From a virus: 35,518 bases of DNA. This document shows, piece after piece, positions 8,846-23,265 of the stretch (its first letter is position 1; the number at the start of each line of letters is the position of its first letter). The position numbers were made by a program, and so were the translations under genes. The notes beneath the pieces are model-generated. The model was not told the DNA's origin, ran no database searches, and saw nothing but the letters and a program-made list of their open reading frames with translations. Location of the stretch: IMG/VR virus record IMGVR_UViG_3300018083_000077, positions 1 through 35,518 of that record; one strand, 5' to 3'.

Positions 8846-9313
8846 CTACCGCTTCTTCGGCTGTGCGCCGCTGGAGGGCAGCGAGTTGTCCAGGTAGTTG
8901 ACCGGGACGAGAACCCAGCCGTAGACCGGCGTCCACTTCAGCTCGAACAGGTTGTCCCTGTCGACGGTCGGAAGCGTGTTGTCCGGACGGCCCGGAGGCT
9001 TCGGAAGGCCCTGGTCCGGCTTCGGCTGAGAACCGGGCAGACCCTGATCGGGCTTCGGCTGCGAGCCGGGCAGGCTGTTGTCGGGGCCGACGGGAGGAAA
9101 CACCGGCAGGTGCACCGGGAATCCGGGAGGCGGCTCGGGCAACGTGTTGTCGGGTCCGGGAGGATTGACCGGCGGCCAGATGACATCCGGTCCTGACGGA
9201 ATGTGAATCGGGTGGGTTGGGACTCCGGGCTGACCGGGGAGGGTGTTGTCGGGTCTGTCCCCACCATCCCTCTTTTCGAGGAAGGTGATGATTGCGAGCT
9301 TCGTAGTCGACAT
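8846..9313 (-). CDS. Proline-rich repeat protein with PDNTLP/PDNSLP units
   Basis: 155 residues from the ATG at 9313, chosen because AAAGGAG precedes it at good spacing. The frame is open further upstream, and an ATG at 9391 (MTRERELIELDAIV) is a possible alternative. The short N-terminal part (MSTTKLAIITFLEKRDG) is followed by at least six variations on PDN[TS]LP / PDQGLP separated by Pro/Gly spacers, including a duplicated SQPKPDQGLPG unit. It ends with LKWTPVYGWVLVPV and another LDNSLP. The repeats suggest an extended polyproline-type structure. Unknown function; head decoration or a particle-associated linker are guesses from its place in the head operon. Confidence 0.65.
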   Translation of the reverse strand: MSTTKLAIITFLEKRDGGDRPDNTLPGQPGVPTHPIHIPSGPDVIWPPVNPPGPDNTLPEPPPGFPVHLPVFPPVGPDNSLPGSQPKPDQGLPGSQPKPDQGLPKPPGRPDNTLPTVDRDNLFELKWTPVYGWVLVPVNYLDNSLPSSGAQPKKR

Positions 9314-9398
9314 CGTTGGCTTCTCCTTTGACTTTCGTTGACGGTTGCGGACGATAGCGTCAAGTTCGATGAGTTCACGTTCGCGAGTCATCCGAGAC

Positions 9399-9665
9399 TC
9401 AAACACGTCGAATCTCGATTGCTCGTGGCCCTTTCGGCGCCTCCAGGCAGAGGAACTCGACGCGGTCGCCGATTTCCAGGTCACTGAATTCCACGCCCTG
9501 CGACTTCTGGAGTGCAGTGTAGTGGAAAAAGTAATCCTGTCCATCGTTGCCAGCGATGAACCCGAAACCTTCCTTGAGCTTGCGAACGACGCCAGTCTCA
9601 CTCTGCGCGGCGTTGCGTGTCTCGGCTGCTGGTCCTGACTCTCTTGGCAATTCTCCGTTACGCAT
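9399..9665 (-). CDS. Cold-shock domain protein
   Basis: 88 residues. After a ~23-residue polar leader, the sequence GVVRKLKEGFGFIAGNDGQDYFFHYTAL (25-52) reproduces the RNP1 (GFGFI) and RNP2 (YFFHY) motifs of the cold-shock domain, an OB-fold that binds single-stranded RNA and DNA. The rest (EIGDRVEFLCLEAPKGPRAIEIRRV) matches the later strands. The ATG at 9665 has GGAG upstream and overlaps the end of the previous gene as ATGCGTAA. The open frame extends to 9809, but only the downstream start avoids a long overlap. A role as RNA chaperone or regulator during late expression is plausible from the family. Confidence 0.85.
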   Translation of the reverse strand: MRNGELPRESGPAAETRNAAQSETGVVRKLKEGFGFIAGNDGQDYFFHYTALQKSQGVEFSDLEIGDRVEFLCLEAPKGPRAIEIRRV

Positions 9666-10750: not shown

Positions 10751-10779
10751 TTGACTTCCTGATCGCCATCGCTTATACT
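10751..10779 (+). promoter_or_regulatory. Rightward early promoter
   Basis: TTGACT (10751-10756), 17-base spacer, TATACT (10774-10779). The predicted start near 10786 gives a ~64-base leader to the ATG at 10850, with GAGGA as ribosome binding site. It drives the short operon 10850-11694 ending at the terminator 11710-11746. Confidence 0.85.
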
Positions 10780-10849
10780 TGTCTTCGTTGGGGGGCGGCA
10801 AGCAAGCGGTTCACCAGCGGGGCCAATCAAGGCCAGAGGATACAGCATC

Positions 10850-11197
10850 ATGGAAAAGGTCATTGTCAAGCTCGAACTGCCGATCGAAGGCAAGCCCGCC
10901 TTCATTTGGGAATACTCCAAGGACAAGGCGGAGTCCATCGAAGACGCCAAGGTGATCGCCAAGGCGATGGCGTCGGGCGACGAGACGCCTTCGGACTACC
11001 TCGTCAAGGCCTTCAACTACGGCCACGATTTGCTGCTTCGTGCGGCGGAGCGTTCCAAGGCGAACAAGGCGTCGCAGGGACCGGAGAAGGAAATCGCCAA
11101 GGCCATCAAGATGATGGTCGAGACGGTCGGCTTCACCGAGGAGGCGGCCCGCGAGATTGTCATCAACCAGCGCAAGGCGGCTGGCAAGCCCGTCTAG
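10850..11197 (+). CDS. Small early protein of unknown function (115 aa)
   Basis: 115 residues and the first gene after the rightward promoter. The N-terminus is beta-like (MEKVIVKLELPIEGKPAFIWEY) and the rest is helical and Lys/Glu-rich. The final ~20 residues (GFTEEAAREIVINQRKAAG) resemble a segment of the protein encoded at 11539-11694 (GLTEAQARELVLAQRAAA), so the two genes flanking the ribozyme-led gene share a module. A stable GC hairpin and a hammerhead ribozyme follow the stop codon directly, so the mRNA end of this gene is probably made by ribozyme cleavage. A strong promoter and first position suggest abundant early expression. Function unknown. Confidence 0.8.
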   Translation: MEKVIVKLELPIEGKPAFIWEYSKDKAESIEDAKVIAKAMASGDETPSDYLVKAFNYGHDLLLRAAERSKANKASQGPEKEIAKAIKMMVETVGFTEEAAREIVINQRKAAGKPV

Positions 11198-11206
11198 GGC
11201 ACGATG

Positions 11207-11230
11207 CGGGGGGCAGAACATCGCCCCCCG
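11207..11230 (+). other. GC-rich hairpin before the ribozyme
   Basis: An 8-bp perfect stem CGGGGGGC/GCCCCCCG with loop AGAACATC, ten bases after the stop codon of the preceding gene and two bases before stem III of the hammerhead. There is no T-tract, so it is not an intrinsic terminator. It would become the 3' end hairpin of the upstream RNA after ribozyme cleavage at 11237/11238. Confidence 0.75.
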
Positions 11231-11232
11231 TC

Positions 11233-11278
11233 CGGTCGCGGAATCTTCCGCCTGATGAGTCCCGAAAGGACGAAACCG
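11233..11278 (+). ncRNA. Type III hammerhead ribozyme
   Basis: All conserved hammerhead positions are present in order: CGGT (11233-11236, stem III), C17 at 11237, stem I GCGGA/TCCGC (11238-11242/11247-11251) closed by ATCT, core CTGATGA (11252-11258), stem II GTCC/GGAC (11259-11262/11268-11271) with loop CGAAA, core GAA (11272-11274), and ACCG (11275-11278) pairing back to CGGT. A15.1-U16.1 and G10.1-C11.1 are correct. Cleavage is predicted between 11237 and 11238. The ATG of the next gene starts at 11279, directly after stem III, and its Shine-Dalgarno (GAAAGGA) lies in loop and stem II. The ribozyme can therefore both process the mRNA and occlude the ribosome binding site. Confidence 0.93.
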
Positions 11279-11542
11279 ATGAAACAGATGAAGCGTTACC
11301 TTGTCGTTCGCAAGCCCGGAGAAGACGACTCCATCGTCGAGTATACCACGCCGCGCGTGGCTGGATGGGCGGACGCGGTTGACCTCTACGGCGAGGTCGA
11401 GGCCATCCGAATCCTGCAGGACCACGCCGAGGCCCGCTACCGCGCAGGCGCTCGTGCCGAGGCCTCATACAAGGCCCGACAGGCTGCGGCTGGCCTGGCC
11501 ATCGCCTCCGAGGGTCACGTCCGAAAGGTGGTGGCGCGATGA
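11279..11542 (+). CDS. Small protein led by the hammerhead ribozyme (87 aa)
   Basis: 87 residues starting at the ATG next to the ribozyme; the longer open frame from 11204 would run through the GC hairpin and ribozyme and is rejected. The N-terminal half (MKQMKRYLVVRKPGEDDSI) looks like a beta-hairpin. The C-terminal half is a long Ala/Arg/Glu helix (AEARYRAGARAEASYKARQAA). Not recognised. Its ribosome binding site is inside stem-loop II of the hammerhead, so translation should depend on RNA folding or cleavage. The stop overlaps the next ATG by four bases (ATGA). Confidence 0.8.
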   Translation: MKQMKRYLVVRKPGEDDSIVEYTTPRVAGWADAVDLYGEVEAIRILQDHAEARYRAGARAEASYKARQAAAGLAIASEGHVRKVVAR

Positions 11543-11694
11543 CCACCATACAGAAGGCCATCGACGCGACCGTCGCGGTCCTCGTTGCCAAGACCGGCCT
11601 CACCGAGGCGCAGGCTCGCGAGCTTGTCCTCGCACAGCGCGCTGCCGCCTACGTGCCGCCTCCGGTGTGGCGCAACGCTCCCCGACTCCGCTAG
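11539..11694 (+). CDS. 51-residue protein sharing a motif with the 10850 gene
   Basis: Short gene coupled to the previous one by an ATGA overlap. MTTIQKAIDATVAVLVAKTG leads into GLTEAQARELVLAQRAAA, which resembles the C-terminal GFTEEAAREIVINQRKAAG of the 115-residue protein at 10850. It is followed within 16 bases by a strong terminator, so it is the last gene of this operon. A one-domain helical protein of unknown role. Confidence 0.75.
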   Translation: MTTIQKAIDATVAVLVAKTGLTEAQARELVLAQRAAAYVPPPVWRNAPRLR

Positions 11695-11709: not shown

Positions 11710-11746
11710 GAGGCCATCCCGAGAAATTGGGATGGCCTCTTTTTTT
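11710..11746 (+). terminator. Strong intrinsic terminator of the ribozyme operon
   Basis: Perfect 11-bp stem GAGGCCATCCC/GGGATGGCCTC (11710-11720/11729-11739), loop GAGAAATT, followed by seven T. It closes the operon that starts at the 10751 promoter and insulates the repeat-rich region that follows. Confidence 0.95.
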
Positions 11747-12010: not shown

Positions 12011-12076
12011 CTCTCGTGCATGTCTCGGGTATGTCTCGGGTATTTCTCGGGTTAGTCTCGGGTATCTCTCGGGTAT
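12011..12076 (+). repeat. Left array of 11-bp repeats
   Basis: Six head-to-tail 11-mers starting at 12011, 12022, 12033, 12044, 12055 and 12066 with consensus GTCTCGGGTAT. The first unit is degenerate; the others differ at one to three positions. The unit is the reverse complement of the right-array unit, so the two arrays face each other. Confidence 0.92.
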
Positions 12077-12490: not shown

Positions 12491-12519
12491 TTGACATCTA
12501 AAACTAGCTGGGGTATAAT
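12491..12519 (+). promoter_or_regulatory. Perfect-consensus rightward promoter
   Basis: TTGACA (12491-12496), 17-base spacer, TATAAT (12514-12519): exact consensus. It faces the small-gene operon from 12579 and sits beside the right 11-bp repeat array, so a repeat-binding protein could control it. Confidence 0.93.
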
Positions 12520-13983: not shown

Positions 13984-13997
13984 TCAGGAAGCCGTCG

Positions 13998-14030
13998 ACC
14001 GAGCGACGTTAAATAGCCGTTAGGCTCGGT
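13998..14030 (+). other. Intergenic hairpin
   Basis: ACCGAGC/GCTCGGT (13998-14004/14024-14030), 7 bp with a 19-base loop, in the 98-base gap between two small genes. A second weak stem (CCCTTGAG/CTCAGGGG) follows near 14035-14063. No T-tract, so it may act as an RNA processing or stability element. Confidence 0.4.
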
Positions 14031-14081
14031 GCGTCCCTTGAGAACCAGATGGGGTCTCAGGGGAGTCGGAAAGGAGACAAG

Positions 14082-14165
14082 ATGCTGAAGTGTCCACGGT
14101 GCGGCAGATACCTTCCGGTCTGCACGTGCAAAAAGGTCAAGATTGTTCAGGCGCTGAACAAATAG
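14082..14165 (+). CDS. 27-residue zinc-knuckle peptide
   Basis: MLKCPRCGRYLPVCTCKKVK and seven more residues: CPRC plus CTC could bind one zinc ion. AAAGGAG sits five bases before the ATG, which is the main reason for calling so short a gene. Its last codons contain the 14144-14160 palindrome. Confidence 0.5.
   Translation: MLKCPRCGRYLPVCTCKKVKIVQALNK
14144..14160. promoter_or_regulatory. Second TGTTCA-N5-TGAACA palindrome
   Basis: TGTTCA and TGAACA separated by five bases, extendable to 8-bp arms (TTGTTCAG/CTGAACAA, 14143-14150/14154-14161). Same spacing as the 11799-11815 site. It lies over the end of a tiny gene and 17 bases before the next ATG. Confidence 0.5.
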
Positions 14166-22608: not shown

Positions 22609-23265
22609 ATGAGACTCGCGCGCATTGGAGTTGCCCTTGTGGCAGCTCTGCTCCTCAGCACCGTGGCCCGCGCTGACCAGATTGTCGGCTTCGGGCAGCT
22701 TGGCTCTCTCAACACGTTCACCTCGACGAACAACGGGGATGGGACGACTTCGCTCGACGTCTTCACCGGCGTTTCGATCACGAACATCATCTCGGGCGCG
22801 ACGGACCCGAATGCGTTGTTCTTTTTCGAGGCCGAGAGCGTCGGTGCGGCCAACGTGGGGCTGCTTATCTCACAGGAGTTTGAAGGGACATTCAACCTCA
22901 CGAACTTCGACGGGAGTATCAGCTACTTGTCTGGTGTCTTCGGTGGCGCACTGACGCTCGGAGGGGATGGTGGAACAAGCGCACTGTTCACTGCCAACAC
23001 CTCACCGTTTGGTCCTTTGACGTTCGCAACGGACCTGCCGGTAATCCTCGGTGACCCGCTGGCCTTCAGCTTGTCACTGTCCAACGTCGCACCGCCACTG
23101 AGTGTGGTAGGCGGCAGTTTGGGGACGTTCTCCGCGAGCTTCACCGGCACTGCGTCGGCGGATACTCCGGACGTTCCCGTTCCCGAACCGGCGACTTTGA
23201 CGATGCTCGGGATGGGCCTCGTCGGGTTGGCTGGTGCAGCACGTCGGCGTCTGTTCCGTAGTTAG
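22609..23265 (+). CDS. PEP-CTERM exported protein
   Basis: 218 residues. Sec signal peptide (RLARIGVALVAALLLSTVARA, cleavage likely after residue 22). A Gly/Ser/Thr/Phe-rich beta-type middle contains almost no Lys, Arg or Cys. The C-terminus (188-218) is a complete PEP-CTERM signal: VPVPEPATL, a hydrophobic helix (TMLGMGLVGLAGAA) and the basic end RRRLFRS. In bacteria with exosortase this tail anchors and processes proteins for surface or exopolysaccharide association. The gene stands alone between a terminator and a 3' hairpin, like a moron. No convincing promoter was found in the 66-base leader; GGAGAG lies before the ATG. Confidence 0.88.
   Translation: MRLARIGVALVAALLLSTVARADQIVGFGQLGSLNTFTSTNNGDGTTSLDVFTGVSITNIISGATDPNALFFFEAESVGAANVGLLISQEFEGTFNLTNFDGSISYLSGVFGGALTLGGDGGTSALFTANTSPFGPLTFATDLPVILGDPLAFSLSLSNVAPPLSVVGGSLGTFSASFTGTASADTPDVPVPEPATLTMLGMGLVGLAGAARRRLFRS

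Follow-up and report, generated by a model that had tools for sequence, protein, structure and literature searches.

A predicted type III hammerhead ribozyme abutting a start codon at a gene junction of a phage operon

Genomic context

The window (the whole stretch of DNA analysed, 35,518 nucleotides) is a 35.5 kb virus record that carries terminase, polymerase, primase and helicase genes. Named phages showed no match to its DNA or to the 115-residue protein discussed below, and the terminase matched at only about 33%. The hammerhead sits between same-strand genes of one predicted transcript, a short rightward operon consisting of a promoter, a 115-residue gene, a hairpin with the ribozyme, an 87-residue gene, a 51-residue gene and a terminator (Table 1). 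The promoters and terminators were identified by consensus and do not represent mapped transcript ends. No significant functional assignment for the proteins encoded in the operon came from Pfam or PHROGs. The preliminary description had called the genes early, a label that is plausible and fits the sigma-70-like promoter. The 51-residue and 115-residue proteins resemble each other (36% for the copy in relative L509), such that small paralogues flank the ribozyme junction.

Table 1. Features of the operon and of the adjacent pistol ribozyme (window coordinates)
Feature	Positions	Strand	Basis
Sigma-70-like promoter, TTGACT-17-TATACT	10751–10779	+	10/12 consensus matches
Upstream gene, 115 residues, conserved anchor of the locus	10850–11197	+	Homologues 58–100% identical
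GC hairpin (9 bp, one G-U)	11206–11231	+	Fold; kept in all five lineages
Type III hammerhead ribozyme, predicted cleavage 11237/11238	11233–11278	+	Sequence, covariance match, predicted fold
Putative Shine–Dalgarno AAAGGA (loop II and stem II 3' strand)	11265–11270	+	Sequence
Downstream gene, 87 residues, AUG abutting stem III	11279–11542	+	49% identical L511 homologue (MKQVKRFLVV)
51-residue gene, paralogue of the C-terminal part of the 115-residue protein	11539–11694	+	Protein similarity
Intrinsic terminator, 13-bp stem and T run, closing the operon	11710–11739	+	Consensus match
Pistol ribozyme (predicted), second self-cleaving ribozyme	13993–14059	+	Rfam 40.4 bits, above cut-off

The next operon starts with a perfect promoter match (TTGACA-17-TATAAT, 12491–12519); TTGACA...TATAAT is also present downstream of the junction in relatives L505 and L506. 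The pistol ribozyme lies in this operon, 23 nt 5' of a 28-codon ORF at 14083 that has its own Shine–Dalgarno (SD) sequence and CxxC-type motifs, and it is kept in L505, L506 and L509–L511. An Rfam scan of the window gave no family matches besides the hammerhead and the pistol ribozyme. Between the two operons, the non-coding stretch 12024–12073 contains repeated short hairpins (CTCGGGTATGTCTCGGG / CTCGGGTATCTCTCGGG). Elsewhere, ORF 22609–23265 encodes a secreted-protein-like product whose end (VPEPATLTMLGMGLVGLAGAARRRLFRS) resembles a PEP-CTERM sorting signal, which is unusual for a phage, and positions 8938–9378 on the minus strand encode a proline-rich repeat protein with PDNTLP / PDQGLP units in an overlapping ORF (8846–9601).

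Structure of the hammerhead and its start-codon junction

A complete type III hammerhead can be read directly from the sequence at 11230–11281 on the plus strand, with all core positions matching. The core segments are CUGAUGA (11252–11258) and GAA (11272–11274). Stem III pairs CGGU (11233–11236) with ACCG (11275–11278) and is only 4 bp long. It is followed by C17 (11237) at the predicted cleavage site and by stem I (11238–11242/11247–11251, within 11238–11251), and stem II pairs GUCC (11259–11262) with GGAC (11268–11271) around the loop CGAAA. The type III core pattern (CUGANGA ... GAA, A15.1–U16.1 and H17) is thus present at 11233–11278. In the predicted fold, stems I and II are closed by loops (AUCU and CGAAA, respectively) and stem III is open. 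The GC hairpin (strands 11206–11214/11223–11231) follows the stop codon of the 115-residue gene and ends 1 nt 5' of stem III. The minimum-energy fold consists of exactly this hairpin and the hammerhead (z = −2.8).

The element was matched by cmscan to RF00008 (Hammerhead_3) with 39.5 bits over the whole length of the model; the E-value is 2.6e-6 for a search of 3.6 kb against 4227 families and 6e-9 when scored against its own record alone. This lies below the Rfam gathering score of 48.5 bits, so the covariance check proposed in the preliminary description fails as it was worded. The cut-off is a curated search threshold, not a structural feature, and we judge it to be too strict here because, of 18 comparable phage records that contain hammerheads, 17 score below it as well and only one passes.

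The AUG (11279–11281) lies directly 3' of the stem III 3' strand, ACCG, and the putative SD sequence lies inside stem-loop II, both as the preliminary description had it. The duplex energy of the SD segment with the anti-SD is −5.3 kcal/mol and the spacer to the AUG is 8 nt (CGAAACCG). An in-frame ATG at 11204, which would place the ribozyme within the coding region, was considered as the start and rejected, as it is absent in L508–L510 and the L511 homologue begins at the MKQ codon.

Relatives at the same locus

Relatives were selected by similarity to the 115-residue protein and not by the ribozyme. Their homologues are identical in L504, 94% identical in L505 and in L506/L507, 91% in L508–L510 and 58% in L511. 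The GC hairpin directly follows the stop codon in all five lineages and the hammerhead architecture is present in four, while the downstream genes differ among lineages that share the 115-residue gene. In L508–L510 the gene joined at its start to the hammerhead is a homologue of the 51-residue gene (74% identical). Compared with the window, a G-C pair of stem I is replaced by C-G, and stem III is extended into the AUG, which lies within the stem (CGUUCGGU/ACCGAAUG). L505 has the core CUGACGA and the stem III CCCU/AGGG, with a weak cmscan match (29.2 bits). In L511 a similar architecture precedes a homologue of the 87-residue gene and was missed by cmscan; its activity is doubtful because an extra U separates the core from stem II. 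The likely SD sequence of both L505 and L511 (AAAGGG) is a strand of stem III. In L506/L507 no ribozyme is present; after the hairpin come CTTTTCTC, with a short U-tract, and an ordinary GAGGAG SD sequence, as if a terminator-like 3' end had replaced the ribozyme.

MAFFT misaligned the stems, and stem pairs were compared on segments placed by hand. Only standard pairs occur in the stems of the four hammerheads, and stems I and III both show double changes, although the sequences are few; compensatory changes are also found in the GC hairpin across lineages. The conserved core bases are all kept in the window and in L508–L510, and also in L505 except at position 7, which is variable. Since relatives found through protein homology keep the hammerhead with compensatory changes, it is, on this comparative evidence, not a chance match. 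The claim of a complete ribozyme with all conserved bases and three pairing stems is confirmed by sequence, cmscan, fold and relatives, which together support a genuine type III hammerhead sited between two genes of one operon.

Type III hammerheads in phages

Three pattern scans that did not require an ATG gave at least 167 non-redundant phage type III hammerheads. Among the matches listed, 155 of 167 (93%) lie no more than 80 nt upstream of the ATG of a same-strand ORF, counting ORFs of 30 codons or more, compared with 45% of random positions, and 137 of 161 come after the end of a same-strand ORF. A stable hairpin ends at most 3 nt from stem III at 115 of 164 listed sites (70%) and at 30 of 164 control positions 200 nt further upstream (18%; p ~1e-21). 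The proposal that the upstream GC hairpin would form an mRNA 3' end is therefore supported, and it generalizes. Type I hammerheads show such junction features far less often (16 of 96, compared with 42 of 54 for type III, by a separate criterion among the matches listed). On the strength of these ORF-end, hairpin and ATG counts, hairpin, type III hammerhead and start codon, in this order, make up a standard junction in phages. L518 and L521, two pattern matches without a proper stem II, were left out of the ribozyme count. Fusions of a type III hammerhead to a start codon also occur in contigs of a Shapirobacteria (Patescibacteria) bin and of another bacterial bin (L490, L501 and L502).

The distance from A15.1 to the ATG falls into two groups among the matches listed: 3–7 nt (nine cases on five contigs) and 12 nt or more, with no ATG at 8–11 nt among the 167. 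The fused share (9 of 167 listed, 5.4%) equals the chance rate, as 4.9% of random positions have an ATG-ORF 3–8 nt on, and thus the fused class shows no overall enrichment over random positions among these 167. Distances within a phage are consistent (7, 5 and 5 in L005; 5 and 5 in L002; 6 and 6 in L041), those of the non-fused L414 are likewise uniform (25, 26 and 25) and L016 is the one mixed case (6 and 25). The start codons of the 87-residue and 51-residue genes are backed by protein homology. The consistency within phages and these two confirmed starts speak in favour of a real fusion. The preliminary description had called the fusion unusual; it is a minority form (nine of the 167 listed), but one that recurs in several unrelated phages.

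Among the matches listed, hammerheads with the stem III 3' strand AGG (GAAAGG) have an ATG 8–14 nt on in five of nine cases, compared with 13 of 232 for strands starting with AC (p 1.4e-4). Given this association, ribozyme strands seem to act as SD sequences, from stem III or, in the window, from stem II. Fused and non-fused hammerheads do not differ significantly in how strongly their stem II strand would pair with the anti-SD (p = 0.14), and its SD-like character may be a side effect of forming stem II.

Proposed role and alternatives

The junction is probably a constitutive intercistronic RNA-processing site that leaves a hairpin-capped upstream mRNA and a ribosome site in the ribozyme remnant. 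This reading is based on the sequence, the conservation of structure, the position and the context; from there we infer cleavage in vivo, stabilization of the products and use of the AAAGGA sequence. Transcription would start near 10787 and run through the 115-residue gene, the hairpin and then the ribozyme. The hammerhead would probably cut itself at 11237/11238 in a constitutive manner, shortly after being transcribed. The upstream product would be monocistronic; its 3' end would consist of the GC hairpin and 6 further nt carrying a 2',3'-cyclic phosphate, and the hairpin would help it to resist 3' exonucleases. The downstream product would carry a 5'-OH, followed by the hairpin of stem I, and both would shape its 5' end. 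Stem III would fall apart because its 5' strand departs with the upstream product, freeing the AUG region. The ribosome-binding site (RBS) of the 87-residue gene would be the AAAGGA of the stem II 3' strand, which is rich in purines, together with the spacer CGAAACCG. One ribozyme could in this way provide a 3' end, a 5' end and a ribosome site in about 80 nt. A tertiary contact between loops I and II is a trait of type III hammerheads tied to fast cleavage; no such contact was assigned here, which counts against the processing reading, as do the 4-bp stem III, the chance-level share of fused hammerheads, the similar anti-SD strength of fused and non-fused cases and the extra U of L511.

The preliminary description had proposed a self-processing switch that controls translation of the second gene. 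A processing site between the two genes is predicted and that part stands; a switch is not supported, as the predicted cost of opening the SD–AUG region falls on cleavage only from 6.2 to 5.0 kcal/mol, a relief of ~1.2 kcal/mol (0.2 in L508, 1.1 in L505 and 1.0 in L511). No sensor or ligand domain or alternative fold was seen in the predicted fold, and the sole Rfam match at the junction is the hammerhead. Constitutive processing explains everything. These values also weigh on a model in which stem III blocks the start until it is cut, so that the second gene is read only from cut RNA, which we consider to be rather unlikely. The AUG abuts stem III in the window and is inside it in L508–L510, the SD sequence sits in stem III in L505 and L511, and its predicted exposure rises on cleavage from 0.31 to 0.84 in L505 and from 0.40 to 0.66 in L511; in a variant, the AUG or SD sequence would be paired directly in the relatives, with regulation possibly by a protein, a small molecule or ribosome traffic. 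However, the predicted relief is just 0.2–1.2 kcal/mol in all four hammerheads, no sensor domain is seen, and in most listed phage type III hammerheads the start codon is farther downstream, with room for a separate SD sequence.

One upstream gene is followed by four gene arrangements 3' of the hairpin, and similar terminators follow the cassette in several relatives. Both observations would suit a ribozyme that marks the edge of an exchangeable cassette and mainly makes inserted genes translatable and their transcript separate. The relatives are few, however, and the pattern is compatible with processing and could be its consequence; we regard this explanation as improbable. A relic, in which the fold is inherited, cutting has been lost and only the hairpin and the RBS matter, would agree with the 39.5-bit score below the Rfam cut-off, the lineage without a ribozyme (L506/L507) and the core insertion in L511, but it is made highly improbable by a conserved core that stays intact in the window, L508–L510 and L505 (position 7 changed) while the stems co-vary. 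A composite of these ideas, a cut-and-translate module in which the hammerhead gives the 3' end, the 5' end and the RBS, stem III holds the start or SD sequence and cleavage licenses exchangeable genes, is somewhat speculative and on balance unlikely. Returning to the processing site, the RBS-fused hammerhead seems from its sequence context to be a minority version of a cut-and-translate junction common in phages.

Comparison with known systems

The element shares with the type III hammerhead of RF00008 the common core, the permutation, the C17 cleavage site and the three stems. It differs in scoring under the curated cut-off, in its short stems II and III, and in 3' strands that double as the SD sequence and the AUG-adjacent leader. 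Phage and prophage hammerheads that flank genes have been proposed to process long transcripts to gene-length mRNAs (Perreault et al., 2011; PMC3088659). Like those, the present hammerhead lies between same-strand genes of one transcript; fusion to an RBS and AUG and an abutting upstream hairpin are not described in the available part of that report. The same source places the HHphage of haloviruses HF1/HF2 shortly 5' of the start codon of an early gene, with a mapped transcript 5' end at most 3 nt from the cleavage site (PMC3088659). The HF1/HF2 element differs in that it lies 13 nt from the start codon, has a variant core and is found with an archaeal host, and an SD sequence within the ribozyme is not reported in that part of the text (PMC3088659).

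Phage hammerheads, hammerheads near start codons and hammerheads as processing sites are therefore already known. No report of a phage hammerhead fused to an RBS was found in the open literature (subscription papers were outside coverage), nor were the recurring abutting hairpin, the RBS-in-ribozyme forms or the comparison with and without a ribozyme at one locus found described there. The role of the abundant phage and bacterial hammerheads has been open since their discovery, and this locus offers natural variants with and without the ribozyme. The common build of gene end, hairpin, type III hammerhead and start codon makes a processing role directly testable, and the RBS-fused form offers a natural design for coupling RNA cutting to translation. 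Cuts by RNase III or RNase E between phage genes, of the T7 type, give stable products with end hairpins, as proposed here; unlike in those systems, the hammerhead RNA would cut itself, leaving a 5'-OH and a cyclic phosphate.
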